Shown here: positions 1,194-24,588 of the stretch, piece after piece
Position numbering within the stretch: position 1 is the first letter of the stretch
How the letters are laid out: each line of letters starts with the position of its first letter
Virus record (IMG/VR): IMGVR_UViG_3300042731_003674
Location: 1 to 25,426 of that record
Length of the DNA: 25,426 bases
Strand: one strand, 5' to 3'
Source of the DNA: a virus
Translations under genes and position numbers: made by a program
The notes under the pieces: model-generated
What the model was told of the DNA's origin: nothing
Database searches by the model: none
What the model saw: the letters and a program-made list of their open reading frames with translations, nothing else

Positions 1194-1473
1194 CGTCTGC
1201 CCCCTCTATCTCTTCCCAATCTCCATCGAACTCCGTGGCTGGCACGAATGCCGCCATCATGCCAATGTCGTCCTGCCACCAAACAATGTCCTGCCCCACG
1301 ATGCACTCAAGGATATTTCCGTCGAACTCCCTCGCTCCGAAGACCTCCGCCATGATGCGCATTCCGAAACCAGATTCGATATGTGCGTACCGCCCCGAGT
1401 CGAAGCACAGCGTCATGATCCCACCCATGGGCTGCCCCTCCAATCCACTGATGATGTCGTAGTACGCTTGCAT
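1174..1473 (-). CDS. hypothetical acidic protein, 99 aa
   Basis: The start at 1473 (MQAYYDIISGLEGQ) is chosen because AAAGGGGGC precedes it at good spacing; a further upstream ATG has no such site. The protein is acidic, especially at its C-terminus (DGDWEEIEGADDEIDTL), and probably strand-rich (GGIMTLCFDSGRYAHIES). I do not recognise it. The same AAAGGGGGC leader precedes the next upstream gene, suggesting common expression tuning in this operon. Confidence 0.75.
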   Translation of the reverse strand: MQAYYDIISGLEGQPMGGIMTLCFDSGRYAHIESGFGMRIMAEVFGAREFDGNILECIVGQDIVWWQDDIGMMAAFVPATEFDGDWEEIEGADDEIDTL

Positions 1474-17809: not shown

Positions 17810-18511
17810 ATGGCGAGGGTTAAAGGCGAAGCGAAAGATCTGCTTGAAGAGCTAGGTATCAGCCGAGACATTGATAACAAGACGCTCGAAGAGCTAATCC
17901 AGCTCCACCCGACAGTCCGCAATTTCGTAGAAGGACACCTCACTTTCGCCGAGGCGCTATTCATTGAAACCTACATTTGCAATGGATTTAACGGCCCAAG
18001 GGCCGCAAGAACCGCACAATTCAAGGCCCTGAATGCCAGGGGTGACACTCAGCTCGCAAACAACATCCTCCGCAAGCCCGTCGTCAAGAGAGTGCTCGCT
18101 GCCCGGATCGCCGAGCGGGCGATGGACGCGGACGAGATTCTCGCCAGGATTCGCGAGGTTGCCGAGGGCAGCCTGGAAGATTTCATCGACATCAAGGAAG
18201 TAAATGATCCTGGCGTGGAGGGCGACAGCATGACCGTTGCCGTGCCCGATCTCCACAAGGCCGCAGAGATGGCCAAGATGCATCTTCTCAAGGAGTTCAA
18301 GTACGACAAGGACGGCAACATCACCGTGAAGCTCCGGGACCAGGACAGAGCCCTGGAGCTGATGGCCAAGCATCTCGGCATGTTCGAGAAACACGACAAC
18401 CGCATCCCGGCAGAGTTCATGGCGGTCATGATGATGACCCCGGACGAGCGAGCGCAGGCCCTCAAGGATTACCGGGAGATGAAAAGCTGGGAAGATGAAG
18501 CGGCGGGCTGA
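17810..18511 (+). CDS. terS: terminase small subunit
   Basis: The 233-residue protein has the Terminase_2-type N-terminal DNA-binding region: 'LTFAEALFIETYICNGFNGP' then 'RAARTAQF', then 'NNILRKPVVKRVLAARIAER'. The central 'ADEILARIREVAEGSLEDFI' and the late 'LRDQDRALELMAKHLGMFEK' are also usual in TerS proteins. It recognises the packaging site and activates the large subunit. GGAG lies six bases before ATG 17810. It is followed, with a 17-base overlap, by the ATPase half of the large subunit. Confidence 0.93.
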   Translation: MARVKGEAKDLLEELGISRDIDNKTLEELIQLHPTVRNFVEGHLTFAEALFIETYICNGFNGPRAARTAQFKALNARGDTQLANNILRKPVVKRVLAARIAERAMDADEILARIREVAEGSLEDFIDIKEVNDPGVEGDSMTVAVPDLHKAAEMAKMHLLKEFKYDKDGNITVKLRDQDRALELMAKHLGMFEKHDNRIPAEFMAVMMMTPDERAQALKDYREMKSWEDEAAG

Positions 18512-19295
18512 CGCTCAGACCTTGGAGCTGCTGGCTCACAAGGAAGAAATGGACGCCATCTGGTCCAAGGACTGCTGGCGTTGGTTCTGTCAGATGGTCC
18601 AGACGGTGGACGAGGCGGCGGTCAGCAATGAAACCGGCAACGTGTTCCGCTGGCCAGCTCACTACACCTACCTGCGCGAAGTGCTGAAGGTTCTTGAGAA
18701 CGAGCCGCTTGTTATTATCCCCAAAAGTAGACGCATGATGATCTCGTGGCTGGTTGCGGCATACTTTGTGTGGCATGCCAGGTATCACGAGAATGGAGCG
18801 CTCTTCTGGCAGTCCGAAACGGAGCAGAAGGCAGCCTTCATTGTGGATCAGCGCTGCAAGTTTATCGAAGAGCACCTCTACAGACCCGAATTCAAGGAAC
18901 AGATCAAGACCATCAAGACCAAGCAGGGCCTGGTTGGGCGCATCACGTATCCCAACGGCTCCTATATATGGGCCGTGGCGCAGGGAGGAGACGTGCTCCG
19001 CACCTACACAGCCACCAAGGTCATGATGGATGAGTGCGAGTTCCAAGACGAGTCGCCTGACGCCTTGACTGCCCTACTGCCCCTGGTCGAGAAGGGCGCT
19101 CAGGCCATCCTCGTCTCCTCAAGTAACGGCCCGATCGGCGTCATGGCGGAGCTGTGTCGAGATGTTGGTTTCACGTCCTGGAAAGACATGAGCACGCTCT
19201 GTAATGCGTTGGAGGGAGGGGCAGATGCCACAGACAGCTTACGGATATCCCAACCCACAAAATCAACAGTGGGGTTATCAGGGGCAGCGGGCTAA
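18495..19295 (+). CDS. terL: terminase large subunit, ATPase half (split gene)
   Basis: These 266 residues correspond to the TerL motor domain. There is a deviant Walker A in 'LVIIPKSRRMMISWLVAAYF' (about 72-91), Walker B as VMMDE (176-180) with the catalytic Glu, and the coupling motif SSS at 208-210. Family-like sequence runs to about 'DVGFTSWKDM' (residue 232). The last 34 residues are unrelated-looking read-through into the intervening segment and end at TAA 19293. The nuclease half lies 0.4 kb downstream as a separate gene in the same reading frame. Together they would be a normal-sized TerL. Confidence 0.92.
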   Translation: MKRRADAQTLELLAHKEEMDAIWSKDCWRWFCQMVQTVDEAAVSNETGNVFRWPAHYTYLREVLKVLENEPLVIIPKSRRMMISWLVAAYFVWHARYHENGALFWQSETEQKAAFIVDQRCKFIEEHLYRPEFKEQIKTIKTKQGLVGRITYPNGSYIWAVAQGGDVLRTYTATKVMMDECEFQDESPDALTALLPLVEKGAQAILVSSSNGPIGVMAELCRDVGFTSWKDMSTLCNALEGGADATDSLRISQPTKSTVGLSGAAG

Positions 19296-19713
19296 CCCCT
19301 GGATTGCGGATTGGTCTCAGAACCAGAATCGCATGGGCTGGCCGAACTATCCCCGGCAACCGCAGGGTGGTTGGGGGGGAATGCGCCCGCAGCCGCACCC
19401 CGGTTGGGGTGGCTGGCAAGCGCAGCCTCAGCCGGGGCCGCCCGGAGGGACCGGCTGGGCTGGGCAACCTGGCTCGTGGAGTGGTGGTGAGATGAGGCCG
19501 ATGCCTGCGCCGGGATGGGGCTGGGGTGGTGGCATGAGGCCAATGCCCGCGCAGCCGCCGCAGTGGTACGATCAGCTTCGCGCCAGGCCAGTTGATCCAG
19601 GATTCGGCAACATCAGCCCGGAACATTGGAAAATATTGAGAAATCGAGGTGTCGTCGGGGGAAACGCGGCAACCCAAGGCCCAGAGAGCCTCGGATACCG
19701 GGGGGGTAAGTGA
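19225..19713 (+). CDS. Gly/Pro/Trp/Gln-rich protein between the TerL halves
   Basis: ATG 19225 has an excellent ribosome-binding site (GGAGGGAGGGGCAG), better than ATG 19204. The 162-residue product starts MPQTAYGYPNPQNQQWGYQG and is low-complexity: many Gly, Pro, Trp, Gln and Tyr, with repeats such as GWGG, 'MRPMPA' and 'MRPQPHPGWGGW'. Only the last 50 residues look foldable (WYDQLRARPVDPGFGNISPE, then 'HWKILRNRGVVGG'). I recognise no family. It overlaps the end of the ATPase half and the start of the nuclease half (TAAGTGA). It may be an intrinsically disordered virion or assembly protein; that is inference. Confidence 0.75.
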   Translation: MPQTAYGYPNPQNQQWGYQGQRANPWIADWSQNQNRMGWPNYPRQPQGGWGGMRPQPHPGWGGWQAQPQPGPPGGTGWAGQPGSWSGGEMRPMPAPGWGWGGGMRPMPAQPPQWYDQLRARPVDPGFGNISPEHWKILRNRGVVGGNAATQGPESLGYRGGK

Positions 19714-20585
19714 CCGAGCTAACCCCCGTCCGTGTTCTCGATCATCCGGGCGGCTGGAAGATCGTGCCGGTTCATTACTCCATGGACCCAAGCAAGGACG
19801 TGGATTGGGTTTGGAAGACGAAAGCCAGGGGCAAGGACACCGACTGGGAGAAAGAATATGAGATCAACTTTGCGTCGGTGGTGGGCAAGCGTTGCTTTGA
19901 AAGCTTTTCCCTCATGGCGAACACGAAAACGGATCTCAAGTGTGACGACCACCTTCCCATCCGTCTCACGTGCGATTTCAACGTCGATCCCATGTGCTGG
20001 CTCGTTTGCCAAATCAACAACGATGTTCTCTACGTGCTCGATGAAGTCTATCTCTCCCCAGGTTCCGTGGTCGAAGCCTGTGATGCTTTCCTTGACCGGT
20101 ACGGAGACCATTATGGTGAGGTCTTTATATACGGAGACGCCTCTGGTAAGGCCCGCTCGCAGCGAGATCAGCGGAGCAACTACGACGAGATGCGCCTACG
20201 TTTCTCCAACCGCCCGTTTCGAGTACGGATGAAGGTGCCCACCCGCAATCCCTCCAACGTCAACTCGGTGATGGCTCTCAATCGCAGGCTTCAAGATGAA
20301 TGGGGCAATCCGAGAGCTTTCATAGCAAGAGCCGAGTGTGAGAATCTGATCGCCGATCTCACCCAGGTCGTCTGGGATGAGCTAAGCGAGGGCAAGCGCA
20401 TCAAGAAAGTGCGCAACCCAGACGACCCGTACTTCTACCGGACCCATGCATCCGACGCCCTCATGGCCCTGGTGTATCGGGAATGGCCAACCAAGAAAGA
20501 GCTGGTGGACAGCACCGACACTGGGAAGAGTCTCAAGCATAAGCGCAAGCGCAAGAAACGCTTACTGGCCATGTTCCCAGACTAG
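19710..20585 (+). CDS. terL: terminase large subunit, nuclease half (split gene)
   Basis: From GTG 19710, which overlaps the previous stop, this 291-residue protein opens with the segment that normally links motor and nuclease ('GGWKIVPVHYSMDPSKDVDW', 'EKEYEINFASVVGKRCFESF'). It then shows the RNase H-like nuclease acids: D89 in LTCDFNVD, D143 in YGDASG and D249 in THASDAL. The end is very basic (KHKRKRKKR), suiting DNA contact. A TAA lies immediately before the GTG in the same frame, so this half must be initiated separately. It should assemble with the ATPase half to cut concatemers. Confidence 0.93.
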   Translation: MTELTPVRVLDHPGGWKIVPVHYSMDPSKDVDWVWKTKARGKDTDWEKEYEINFASVVGKRCFESFSLMANTKTDLKCDDHLPIRLTCDFNVDPMCWLVCQINNDVLYVLDEVYLSPGSVVEACDAFLDRYGDHYGEVFIYGDASGKARSQRDQRSNYDEMRLRFSNRPFRVRMKVPTRNPSNVNSVMALNRRLQDEWGNPRAFIARAECENLIADLTQVVWDELSEGKRIKKVRNPDDPYFYRTHASDALMALVYREWPTKKELVDSTDTGKSLKHKRKRKKRLLAMFPD

Positions 20586-20594
20586 GAGGATGAG

Positions 20595-20951
20595 ATGGCA
20601 GACAGAACGGCAGTCTTTCTGATCGATATCACGGAAGACGATCAAAACTCGAACGAGATCCCGCTTGGCAACGACGCGCTATATGCGATCGAGATGCCCA
20701 GCGCCTGGACTGCGGGGAATATCACGGTCAAGGGCAAGATCAACGTGGATGCAACGGCGCGTAACGTGCTCCTGTTCGATTACTCGGACGGGACGCAGGA
20801 TGTTCTAACGATTGTCTCGCCAGCGGTTGATACGCTGATCTTCTTTGATCCGCCAATTCGTGGTCTTTACAGCGTGCAGCTCTATTCAGCCGCCGCCCAA
20901 TTGGCAGATCGCACCATCACACCCAGATTCCACCGCTTTATCCCCAAGTGA
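20595..20951 (+). CDS. small hypothetical protein of the head operon, 118 aa
   Basis: AGGAGGATGAG precedes ATG 20595. The protein (MADRTAVFLIDITEDDQNSN...) is strand-rich with almost no charged helices ('AGNITVKGKINVDATARNVL', 'TLIFFDPPIRGLYSVQLYSA'), resembling small beta-sandwich head or decoration proteins. No family is recognised. It sits between the terminase and portal genes. Confidence 0.8.
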   Translation: MADRTAVFLIDITEDDQNSNEIPLGNDALYAIEMPSAWTAGNITVKGKINVDATARNVLLFDYSDGTQDVLTIVSPAVDTLIFFDPPIRGLYSVQLYSAAAQLADRTITPRFHRFIPK

Positions 20952-20958
20952 GGCAGCT

Positions 20959-22941
20959 ATGCCCGAGGAACTTCGAATTGAATCCGCGCCAGACGCCCCA
21001 ATTACAGAGCGGCTGAAGCCACAAACTCCTCTCCACGGTCAAGTTCTGGGGCGGCTCACCGACCGGCGCGACTATTCGGAAGAGTTCCTGGCAGATCGCC
21101 GCACAGAATGGAATCGCGTCAAGCGCCACCTTCGTTTTTACATCGACCTAACCGAAAAAACCAAACTCGCTGACAAGACCACCGACAGCCAAGACCTGGA
21201 GATGCCCTTTAAGCGAGCTATCACCATCCCCTTATCCGCCGCCACACTGGAAGTCTATCTCACCCAGCTCATGTCGATCTTCACCGCTCGCGACCCGATT
21301 TTTCAAATCAAGGGCCGGGCACCGGAGGACATCTTCTCGGCACGACTCGTCGAAGCCCTTTTGACGTACGACGCGCAGCAAACCAAGGCTTTCTCGGCGA
21401 TGTATTCCATGTTCCACGATGCCATTGCATACGGAAATGGAATCACCTACGACAGTTGGGAGATTGAAGAGGGGATCAAGCACGAATTCGAGCCTCTTCA
21501 AGTTCCTGGCGCTCCTCCTGGACTCCTTGCGGCTGTGCTTGGTCCTCTCGCTTACACGCCCATGCGACGCTGGGGAATTAAGCGTGAGTACAATCGGTGG
21601 CGTCCCGTAGATCCCTTCTCGATGAGACCAGATCCAAGGGTGGCGCTCTCCGATCTGCAGGGGGGCGAATTCTTCGGGCACAAGTTTGAGGCCAGTTACA
21701 ACACGCTACTCAAGAAATCTGGCGAAAGGGGGCCTTACTTCAACGTCGAGAACCTTCCCGCCAGAGCGGGCTTGAGTCTCAAAAATGAGGACAAGGAAGA
21801 ATATGGGATCAACGAGCTTACGGCGGACAGCACCAGCCACGACGTCAAGGACCGTGGATACTACAACTGCGAAACCATGACCGTGGAGCTGATCCCGTGG
21901 GATTGGGAGCTTGGTGAGTCCACCATGCCAGAGAAGTGGATCTTTGCCTGGGCAGAGGACGACGTCATCATCAGGGCCAATCCACTGGCCAATGCGCACG
22001 ACCAATTCCCGTACTCGGTTGCTGAGCCAAACCCGGATTTCCATTCCACGTTTGGCCCCGGCGTAATTGAAAACATCGAGCCGATGCAGCGATTTATCAA
22101 TTGGCTCTTCAATAGCCACGTTGAAAATATCGCGTCGATGCTTAACAACCAGTGGGCGTACTCACCCAAGTTCATCCAGGAGATGGACCTGGAGTATGGC
22201 GGGCCTGGTCAGCACATCCGGCTTACCAATGATGCTGTGGAGATGATGCTCAGCGGTGAGATCCAGGATGTGAAGCAGTTTCTGTGGCAAGTGCCCGCCC
22301 AGGACGTCACCGGCCCGAGCTACATGAATGCCGTGCAGTACGTGTACCAGATGGCGCAGCTTTTGACCAGCGTGAACGATCCCCTCTCGGGCGTTCAAAC
22401 GCCCACCGAGCGCTCCGCAACGGAGATCCAAACCATCACGGCCAAGGCCAGCGACAGGGTCGCAATCAAGGCTCGTTTAATGGACGAGAACGCCATGCAG
22501 CCGCTCATCCAGCGAGCGATCGCCAACCGTCAGCAGTTCACCCAGATGCAGCAGTATTACAACATCGGCGGGCAGCTCGCCAAGGATCTCATGATGGAAA
22601 GCATCTTCATCGATATGCGTGAGCTGCAGGGCCAGTATGACTACGTGCCAATCACGGGCATCCTGCCCGAAGATCCAGCCCGATCAGCCCAGGTCTGGGC
22701 GAATGTCATGGCTGCGGCAGCCCAGATCCCCATGCTCCAACAGCCTGGACCGGACGGCAGGATGCTCGATTTTCGCGAGGTTTTCAATACTGTCGCCGAA
22801 AAGCAAGGCATCCAGAATATCGATCGCTATTACATGAACGTCAACGTCATGCCCGATCAACAGGTGGCTCAGCAAGAGCAGGCTGGCAACATGGTGCCGC
22901 TGCCCGAGCCGCAGGGCATGCTGCCCCCAGGAGCCATGTAA
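20959..22941 (+). CDS. portal protein
   Basis: The 660-residue protein starts at ATG 20959 after GAGG; a longer frame to 20845 would overlap the previous gene by 107 bases. The N-terminal third has the usual portal layout: 'ADRRTEWNRVKRHLRFYIDL', 'ITIPLSAATLEVYLTQLMSI', then 'MFHDAIAYGNGITYDSWEIE'. A central 'ERSATEIQTITAKASDRVAI' is followed by a long helical region and a Gln/Pro/Met-rich end. Twelve copies should form the vertex ring for DNA entry. Size and order (terminase, portal, scaffold, capsid) fit; motif evidence is good, not exhaustive. Confidence 0.88.
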   Translation: MPEELRIESAPDAPITERLKPQTPLHGQVLGRLTDRRDYSEEFLADRRTEWNRVKRHLRFYIDLTEKTKLADKTTDSQDLEMPFKRAITIPLSAATLEVYLTQLMSIFTARDPIFQIKGRAPEDIFSARLVEALLTYDAQQTKAFSAMYSMFHDAIAYGNGITYDSWEIEEGIKHEFEPLQVPGAPPGLLAAVLGPLAYTPMRRWGIKREYNRWRPVDPFSMRPDPRVALSDLQGGEFFGHKFEASYNTLLKKSGERGPYFNVENLPARAGLSLKNEDKEEYGINELTADSTSHDVKDRGYYNCETMTVELIPWDWELGESTMPEKWIFAWAEDDVIIRANPLANAHDQFPYSVAEPNPDFHSTFGPGVIENIEPMQRFINWLFNSHVENIASMLNNQWAYSPKFIQEMDLEYGGPGQHIRLTNDAVEMMLSGEIQDVKQFLWQVPAQDVTGPSYMNAVQYVYQMAQLLTSVNDPLSGVQTPTERSATEIQTITAKASDRVAIKARLMDENAMQPLIQRAIANRQQFTQMQQYYNIGGQLAKDLMMESIFIDMRELQGQYDYVPITGILPEDPARSAQVWANVMAAAAQIPMLQQPGPDGRMLDFREVFNTVAEKQGIQNIDRYYMNVNVMPDQQVAQQEQAGNMVPLPEPQGMLPPGAM

Positions 22942-23439: not shown

Positions 23440-24588
23440 ATGCCACCGGAAAAGCAGGAGGATACCACCAGGCAGGAATTCGAGGATGCCCTCGATCTGT
23501 CGCAAGATCCTTACGACCCCGGCTTTGATGACGACCTCAAGGTAGACGAGGATCAGAAAAAGCCCGAGGCTGACGAAAAGGAGAAAGCGGCAGATGACCA
23601 AGCCAAGGAGACTAGCGAGAAAGAAGCGGAAGCTACCCCTGAAGCCGAAGAAAAGCAAGAAGAAAAGCCCGTCCAAGAAGAGCTGAAATTGGAACAGGAA
23701 GAGATCCACGAGATCACCCTGCCAGACGGCTCGAAGATGGCGGTGCCCAAGGAACTGGCTGAGCACGAACAATTCAAGAAGCTCGTCACGCAGGATCATC
23801 AAGTTGCGCACTATCAGAAACTTGCAGAGGAAAGACAGGCACAGCTCGATGAGCTTCAAAAGCAGCAGGACCAGAAGCGACAAGAGGCTATTGATATCCT
23901 CTTGCAGCAGCAGGCGGCACAAGCGGAACAGGCGCAACAGCAGCAGCAAGTTCAGCAGTTCCAGAGACCACCGGCAGACAAGATCAAGGAACATTTCACT
24001 CCAATGATCGCCCAGATGCAAGCAGAGGGGCGGATCACTGAGGAGGAAGCCTACGATCACGGTGGCCTCATTGCCGAACAGCTCTTTCAGAATGCATTGC
24101 TGGAGCAGAAAATCGCCCAGCTTGAGCACGGAATGACTCAGGTGGTGACAGCAATGCCGACGCAGGAGATGTTCGATCTTTTCCGAGCGCAACAGGTGCA
24201 AACAGAAGAGGCTAAACTACTCGCCGAAGTTTCCAACCGGCAGGGCTACGAAGACCTAACAAATCCTGATGAGTGGCAGAAGCTCAAGGATTTCGTAGCT
24301 CAGAAAATAGCTAACAGCCCGAAAGACGGAGAAGGTAATCCAACGTTCAATCCCCTGTTCGATGCGGACACGGTCTGTGCGCTTTACGATGCCATGATGG
24401 CACCAACCTGGCGCGCAGCAATCCAGAAGCAAAGGGCACAGGCGGAGGAGGACGCCAAGACGTCGGCGAAACAGGCGGCTGGAGATTCCGCCAGTAAAGC
24501 TCCAGCCAAACCAACGCCGCCGAAAGCTCCAATGACGCCGGAACTGGACGCGATGACCTTCGACGATCCAAAGGCTGCTACTGGCTAA
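23440..24588 (+). CDS. scaffolding protein
   Basis: The 382-residue protein has a very acidic N-terminus with many Asp, Glu and Lys (DDDLKVDEDQKKPEADEKEK), then a short folded block (EIHEITLPDGSKMAVPKELA). A long Gln-rich coiled coil follows ('LDELQKQQDQKRQEAIDILL', 'QAEQAQQQQQVQQFQ'), then a helical C-terminus and an Ala/Pro/Lys-rich tail. This composition, and the place just before the capsid gene, are typical of tailed-phage scaffolds, which guide capsid assembly and leave before packaging. AAGGAG precedes ATG 23440. Confidence 0.9.
   Translation: MPPEKQEDTTRQEFEDALDLSQDPYDPGFDDDLKVDEDQKKPEADEKEKAADDQAKETSEKEAEATPEAEEKQEEKPVQEELKLEQEEIHEITLPDGSKMAVPKELAEHEQFKKLVTQDHQVAHYQKLAEERQAQLDELQKQQDQKRQEAIDILLQQQAAQAEQAQQQQQVQQFQRPPADKIKEHFTPMIAQMQAEGRITEEEAYDHGGLIAEQLFQNALLEQKIAQLEHGMTQVVTAMPTQEMFDLFRAQQVQTEEAKLLAEVSNRQGYEDLTNPDEWQKLKDFVAQKIANSPKDGEGNPTFNPLFDADTVCALYDAMMAPTWRAAIQKQRAQAEEDAKTSAKQAAGDSASKAPAKPTPPKAPMTPELDAMTFDDPKAATG

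Follow-up and report, generated by a model that had tools for sequence, protein, structure and literature searches.

Locus organization

The window, by which we mean the entire 25.4 kb virus record from IMG/VR analysed here (IMGVR_UViG_3300042731_003674, 25,426 nucleotides), carries on its plus strand, in this order, genes for a small terminase (TerS), an open reading frame (ORF) designated ORF1, a middle gene, ORF3, a 118-residue ORF and an SU10-type portal protein. We find that its large terminase (TerL) is encoded by two of these genes, as proposed in a preliminary description of the window made from its letters alone. ORF1 (18495-19295) matches TerL ATPase families (phrog_2, 4.5e-7; phrog_5989, 1.1e-6) and a T4 gp17 profile, and ORF3 (19710-20585, 291 residues from a GTG start) matches TerL nuclease families (phrog_10250, 3.4e-8; phrog_5653, 2e-6). 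Neither ORF has a Pfam match at E ≤ 0.1. The conserved part of ORF1 spans 18495-19190, and the remainder is a tail that overlaps the middle gene; the gp17 profile match stops after motif III. ORF1 is conserved in all relatives, whose loci or records carry L-numbers below (L001 and so on).

The conserved part of ORF1 and ORF3 share one frame; the 519 bases between them (19191-19709) contain a further reading frame, and an in-frame TAA at 19707-19709 stands immediately 5' of the ORF3 GTG, all as first described. The borders drawn at that time do not hold up: ORF1 reads on through the ATGA at 19188 to a TAA at 19293-19295, so that its last 71 nucleotides (19225-19295) also belong, in a different frame, to the middle gene, and the GTGA at 19710 represents an ordinary overlap of the middle gene's stop (TGA) with the nuclease gene's start (GTG), and not the scar of an insertion. 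The middle gene (19225-19713) most likely starts at the ATG at 19225, behind a strong Shine-Dalgarno sequence (GGAGGGAGG, 19211-19219), rather than at 19204, since the relatives all start with 'MP...' or 'MM...' at this point. In L002-L004, ORF1 stops at a TAG before the Shine-Dalgarno sequence; the 71-nucleotide overlap may have arisen by loss of that stop, or the reverse may have occurred.

ORF1 has the features of an additional-strand, catalytic-glutamate (ASCE) ATPase core, with a Walker B Asp-Glu pair (D179 E180, 19029-19034) and a motif III or coupling motif, SSSNG (19116-19130), in an alignment to T4 gp17 that runs up to residue 290. The classical Walker A, GxxxxGK[S/T], is replaced by PKSRRMMISW (18720-18749) in split and fused family members alike. 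Of the motor motifs named in the preliminary description, Walker B and the coupling motif are thus present as stated, and Walker A is present in a deviant form that lacks GK[S/T]. Deviant Walker A motifs occur in other terminases too, and the classical motif is not defining; the (I)PKSRRM type, which is present throughout the family whether the genes are split or fused, is reminiscent of the deviant motif in lambda gpA. Its lysine and both arginines (K77, R79 and R80) do not vary among 28 split and 51 fused members. ORF3 contains an RNase H-like nuclease (residues 58-265, 19881-20504) with the acidic residues D89, D143 and D249 plus E112. K77, R79, R80, E180, E49, D89, E112 and D143 are invariant in 28/28 split members and D249 is kept in 27/28, with nearly the same catalytic-residue pattern in fused members. 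As expected of a TerL, the two genes lie alongside those for TerS (17810-18511; PF03592 Terminase_2, 9.7e-16; phrog_51, 1.8e-17), which is directly upstream with its 3' end overlapping ORF1 by 17 nucleotides, and for the SU10-like portal (20845-22941; PF23899, 2.3e-30), the downstream packaging partner. The organization departs from that of a TerL in that the two domains do not share a polypeptide but occupy two ORFs with stops and starts between them.

Both genes appear to be maintained. Relative to L001, the window differs at codon positions 1/2/3 by 39/22/106 in ORF1 and 34/20/125 in ORF3, which indicates that both are under purifying selection. Pairwise ATPase and nuclease distances correlate to a similar degree in split (r 0.895) and fused (r 0.888) members, and the halves are therefore inherited as a unit.

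The split in relatives of the window

IMG/VR was searched with each half and then with profiles, and every locus was classed as split or fused according to whether the ATPase and nuclease matches share one ORF. Counted without redundancy, ~30 members are split and 51 relatives are fused. Every close relative of the window shows the split, as do 15/15 non-redundant members of its clade, and closely related pairs recovered from different samples (L004/L005 and L002/L006) agree on it. Eight loci have overlapping or abutting TerL genes with nothing between them: L008 (10-nucleotide overlap) and L096 (1-nucleotide overlap) in the window's clade, where L103 has a gap of 34 nucleotides, and L107, L111, L123, L129, L130 and L133 in a sister group. 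Elsewhere the gap holds relatives of the middle gene (L002-L004), four ORFs including a CarboxypepD_reg protein (L007, 2.4e-11), an M15-type peptidase/endolysin (L106, in the window's clade), a metallophosphoesterase (L105, 2.2e-55) or, in the sister group, an endonuclease VII/HNH-like gene (L108, phrog_1035, 1.1e-25). The L108 contig also carries a Type-P5 twister ribozyme match (1368-1422, minus strand, 62 bits). In L007, L104-L106, L112, L117 and L132 the halves lie kilobases apart, with several genes and stops in the cargo between them, and gaps range from -38 to about +3200 nucleotides across the family, individual values being approximate because nuclease starts were set by a simple rule.

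Since relatives are split without an insert and unrelated inserts occur in others, the two genes came first and the gap is a site of variable cargo. Comparison of these loci thus indicates that the window's lineage inherited TerL as two genes and took up the intervening gene later, as cargo. The preliminary description instead suggested that a reading frame had been inserted at a TGA. On this view, a mobile reading frame would recently have broken an intact terL in this phage. The shared frame of the halves and the composition of the middle gene (GC 0.64 versus 0.57/0.55 in the flanking halves) would fit such an event, which we nevertheless regard as extremely improbable: all 15 clade members are split, including L008, L096 and L103 without the insert, the eight loci with overlapping or abutting genes are split with nothing inserted, other relatives hold other inserts, the ORF1 stop does not lie at the proposed border, and no mobile-element signature is present. 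The same description had named homologues that naturally stop close to residue 232 and always have a separate nuclease as evidence that would count against it; this is the arrangement in 15/15 clade members, and it refutes an insertion while strengthening the case for a two-gene motor.

The middle-gene family (162-279 residues; the window, L001-L004 and L007) is Pro-, Gly- and Gln-rich, with an ANPxxxDxxQNxN-like motif and a C-terminal GGK. The gene is fast-evolving; the 162-residue version in the window is also rich in Trp, and that of L004 is predicted to be disordered. Pfam and PHROG searches returned no match for the middle gene, which may be no more than cargo or may encode an accessory of the motor.

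A wider-profile search of a genome collection recovered two contigs from metagenome-assembled genomes (MAGs) with overlapping split genes, L196 (Synergistaceae) and L197 (Latescibacterota); a narrow profile found no match in that collection. These contigs are short and offer a possible hint to the host of the sister lineage. All split members come from metagenomes, as they might if the split reflected errors of sequencing or assembly, or decay into a pseudogene. We give this very little credence, as the arrangement is common to many samples, to a deep clade and to the two bacterial MAG contigs, the catalytic residues are conserved, and both halves have a strong third-position bias.

Splicing and translational joining as alternatives

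One alternative is that the halves are exons and the intervening region an intron removed from the mRNA, so that one ordinary TerL is made. There is precedent for TerL in pieces with other genes between them, in the group I intron-containing terL of Jug phages and in Campylobacter phage IBB_35, which has an intein and an intron, and in these cases the pieces are spliced back together (PMC12363816, PMC3322345). The terminase coding region of herpesvirus UL15 is likewise interrupted by unrelated lineage-specific genes, with UL16/UL17 lying inside its intron (PMC3079670), and the endonuclease VII/HNH-like gene in the L108 gap would suit an intron. Rfam, in contrast, gave no group I or group II match in the window or the 30 relatives scanned, with nothing in the window at the gathering threshold and nothing at E ≤ 1 for 19000-20000; with the intein cases left out, intron families are absent from the window and 27 scanned family loci. 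An intron would not fit where the genes of relatives overlap or abut, the two TerL genes stand in different frame relations across the family (0, 1 and 2), and the ATPase gene has its own stop followed by the Shine-Dalgarno sequence and start codon of the next gene. UL15 is a spliced eukaryotic-virus gene that yields one protein, whereas the window has separate bacterial-style cistrons, and splicing of the UL15 type is disfavoured by the presence of separate start, stop and Shine-Dalgarno signals. We conclude that an intron is very unlikely.

Joining of the halves during translation, by read-through, frameshifting or ribosome bypass and perhaps with the Pro-rich protein as a linker, is somewhat less improbable than splicing but still unlikely. 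In the window and L001-L004 the ATPase gene is in frame with the nuclease gene, and in L002-L004 all three genes share a frame and are separated by TAG only, so that read-through would give a single chain with a disordered linker. Other members of the family differ in frame relation, however, and the kilobase cargo listed above contains several genes and stops. The stops also coincide with the Shine-Dalgarno and start signals of the next gene, and TAG terminates the nuclease gene of the window itself, with the next start just behind it. Three specific routes to a joined product were rejected: TAG recoding in L002-L004, where a TAG ends the nuclease gene just before the next start, consistent with the standard code; -1 slippage at the G7 run at 19700-19706, which runs straight into the TAA and gives no fusion; and an intein in the window, where the middle gene is out of frame and has neither a Hint domain nor a Pfam match.

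Predicted position of the cut

AlphaFold2 (AF2) was used to model the L004 locus read through its TAGs (TAG=Q), which served in place of a linked complex. The predicted local distance difference test (pLDDT) score is mostly >90 in the ATPase, <50 in the Pro-rich part and mostly >80 in the nuclease. Model residues 14-499 can be superposed with the ATPase domain of T4 gp17 (2o0h, 101-357; 2.6 Å over 244 residues, Z 24.3), and residues 27-501 with that of P74-26. Residue 445 of the model is the first of the nuclease gene product; the gp17 superposition extends past this point, and therefore the first ~55 residues of the nuclease chain belong to the ATPase domain. Window ORF3 modelled alone (AF2, pLDDT 85.6) gives the complementary result that nuclease structures match only about residues 58-265 (D6E TerL, Z 19.5, root-mean-square deviation 2.1 Å; T4 gp17 361-557, Z 14.5), a fold match that covers D6E, P22, SPP1 and T4. 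A profile of seven nuclease halves searched against PDB sequences gave no meaningful match. The conserved part of ORF1 ends about 20-28 residues past the position aligned to gp17 residue 290, that is, at ~310-318, and we take the border between NsubI and NsubII of gp17 to lie near residue 313. In alignments with fused relatives the cut maps to a variable loop between the post-motif-III helix and the strand 'RVHYTADP', and comparison of fused L110 with split L123 again places it in the loop after that helix.

These models indicate that ORF1 corresponds to NsubI, the engine, and ORF3 to NsubII (the transmission), the hinge and the nuclease. The first ~57 residues of ORF3 (19710-19880), by superposition with the gp17 ATPase domain, are predicted to form the lid/transmission subdomain, matching T4 gp17 ~314-360. 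The cut is thus predicted to lie inside the ATPase domain and not at the ATPase/nuclease hinge, where the preliminary description had put it. The pLDDT of the ORF3 N-terminal segment is 74-91 beside the ATPase half (L004 model) and 61-80 alone, the sequences and alignments differing between the two; the higher value is a weak sign of packing.

Fused relatives and direction of change

The 51 non-redundant relatives in which the same Walker A variant occurs in one continuous TerL gene, about 505-570 residues long, comprise L110, L120-L122, L125 and a 46-member clade. These fused IPKSRRMM-type proteins are direct relatives of the window's TerL with the same motifs, and differ from it in being encoded by a single gene. 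The isolated relatives checked, among them BcepC6B, Pmp11, Hodr and Rollin, have fused TerL genes. L181, L186 and L189 are fused TerL relatives with ~300 extra residues inside one ORF, in the nuclease half, with an Intein_splicing/Hint match in L181 and LAGLIDADG in L186 and L189; these are likely inteins.

On a tree of the concatenated halves (IQ-TREE, 48 rows), two changes of the split/fused label suffice, with the fused L110/L120/L121/L122/L125 group nested inside split lineages. A constraint placing all split members on one side is rejected (log-likelihood difference 127, approximately unbiased test p 1.6e-91), and fission or fusion has therefore occurred more than once. L123, the nearest relative of the L110 group, is split by a TAG with an ATG immediately after it, a single codon away from fusion. 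When distant outgroups are included, five changes are required, and well-supported branches force at least three of these. The direction, ancestral fission followed by later fusions or many fissions, depends on the root; on the ingroup tree, one fission and two fusions would be the shorter account.

Other features of the window

Neither the window nor eight records of 28-65 kb, all of which may be fragments, contains a second TerL. A 382-residue ORF (23440-24588) occupies a head-gene position after the portal and has no Pfam or PHROG match.

Discussion

We consider it probable that the large terminase of this lineage is naturally a two-gene protein whose products co-assemble into one motor. 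The split, its conservation, the catalytic residues and the cargo are drawn from sequence and tree, and the cut site from prediction. The two-component packaging motor envisaged in the preliminary description is supported by the inherited two-gene TerL, from which we infer the assembly of the chains. The ORF1 product would supply the ATP-hydrolysing core with Walker A, Walker B and the coupling motif, and the ORF3 product would combine the nuclease/translocation domain and the hinge with the final ~57 residues of the ATPase domain, all on one chain. Both genes lie in one operon behind TerS, and their stop/start overlaps suggest coupled translation, so that the products would be made together. 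They most likely associate and rebuild the canonical TerL fold, acting jointly as a motor, and several ORF1-ORF3 pairs would form a ring on the portal. Because the TerL genes are independent, the space between them would be free for other genes, and its contents would vary accordingly among a Pro/Gly/Gln-rich protein, an endonuclease VII/HNH-like protein, an endolysin, a metallophosphoesterase or nothing.

In T4, NsubI is the engine and NsubII the transmission, which couples through the hinge to the DNA-moving C-domain (PMC3012670, PMC9958956). The window's TerL resembles T4 gp17 and other phage TerL proteins in its ATPase fold, Walker B, coupling motif, RNase H-like nuclease and TerS-TerL-portal order, and is unlike them in its two genes, its predicted cut between NsubI and NsubII and a deviant Walker A that lacks GK[S/T]. 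One arginine in the Walker A of Sf6 toggles between ATP and a glutamate in the lid (PMC7617512). By alignment, the arginine would here be on ORF1 and the lid on ORF3, and a switch of this kind would then act between two chains.

Several observations weigh against a working two-chain motor. In addition to the metagenomic origin of every split member, no close split relative occurs among 50,697 phage records. In the AF2 read-through model the two chains are linked artificially, and the alignment is imperfect near the junction. T4 gp17 that was artificially separated into two polypeptides at the linker retained both activities and lost translocation (PMC3012670), and a split motor is therefore not guaranteed to function. 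The T4 cut lies elsewhere, however: the natural cut is predicted to keep transmission, hinge and nuclease together, and thus to spare the joint whose separation in T4 lost translocation.

In the open-access literature searched, we find no TerL that is naturally encoded by two genes; the known splits are the intron/intein and UL15 cases. A broader proposal is possible, although we regard it as doubtful: a two-polypeptide motor may be the normal state of a large uncultivated lineage, with a cut exactly between engine and transmission and each ATPase domain assembled in trans from two proteins, repeated splitting and re-fusion, a junction that is a standing site for cargo, and a Pro/Gly-rich protein that may be a motor component and tether the halves.

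TerL is usually regarded as an indivisible single-chain motor and serves as a universal marker gene for tailed phages; neither half of this TerL matches Pfam at the threshold used here, and marker-gene pipelines can miss or mislabel such phages. Separate genes would let the dosage or the partners of engine and nuclease vary in trans. A lineage predicted to be cut inside the ATPase domain, with its engine apart and its transmission, hinge and nuclease joined, where a hinge cut in T4 kills translocation (PMC3012670), would be a natural test of which covalent link the packaging motor needs.

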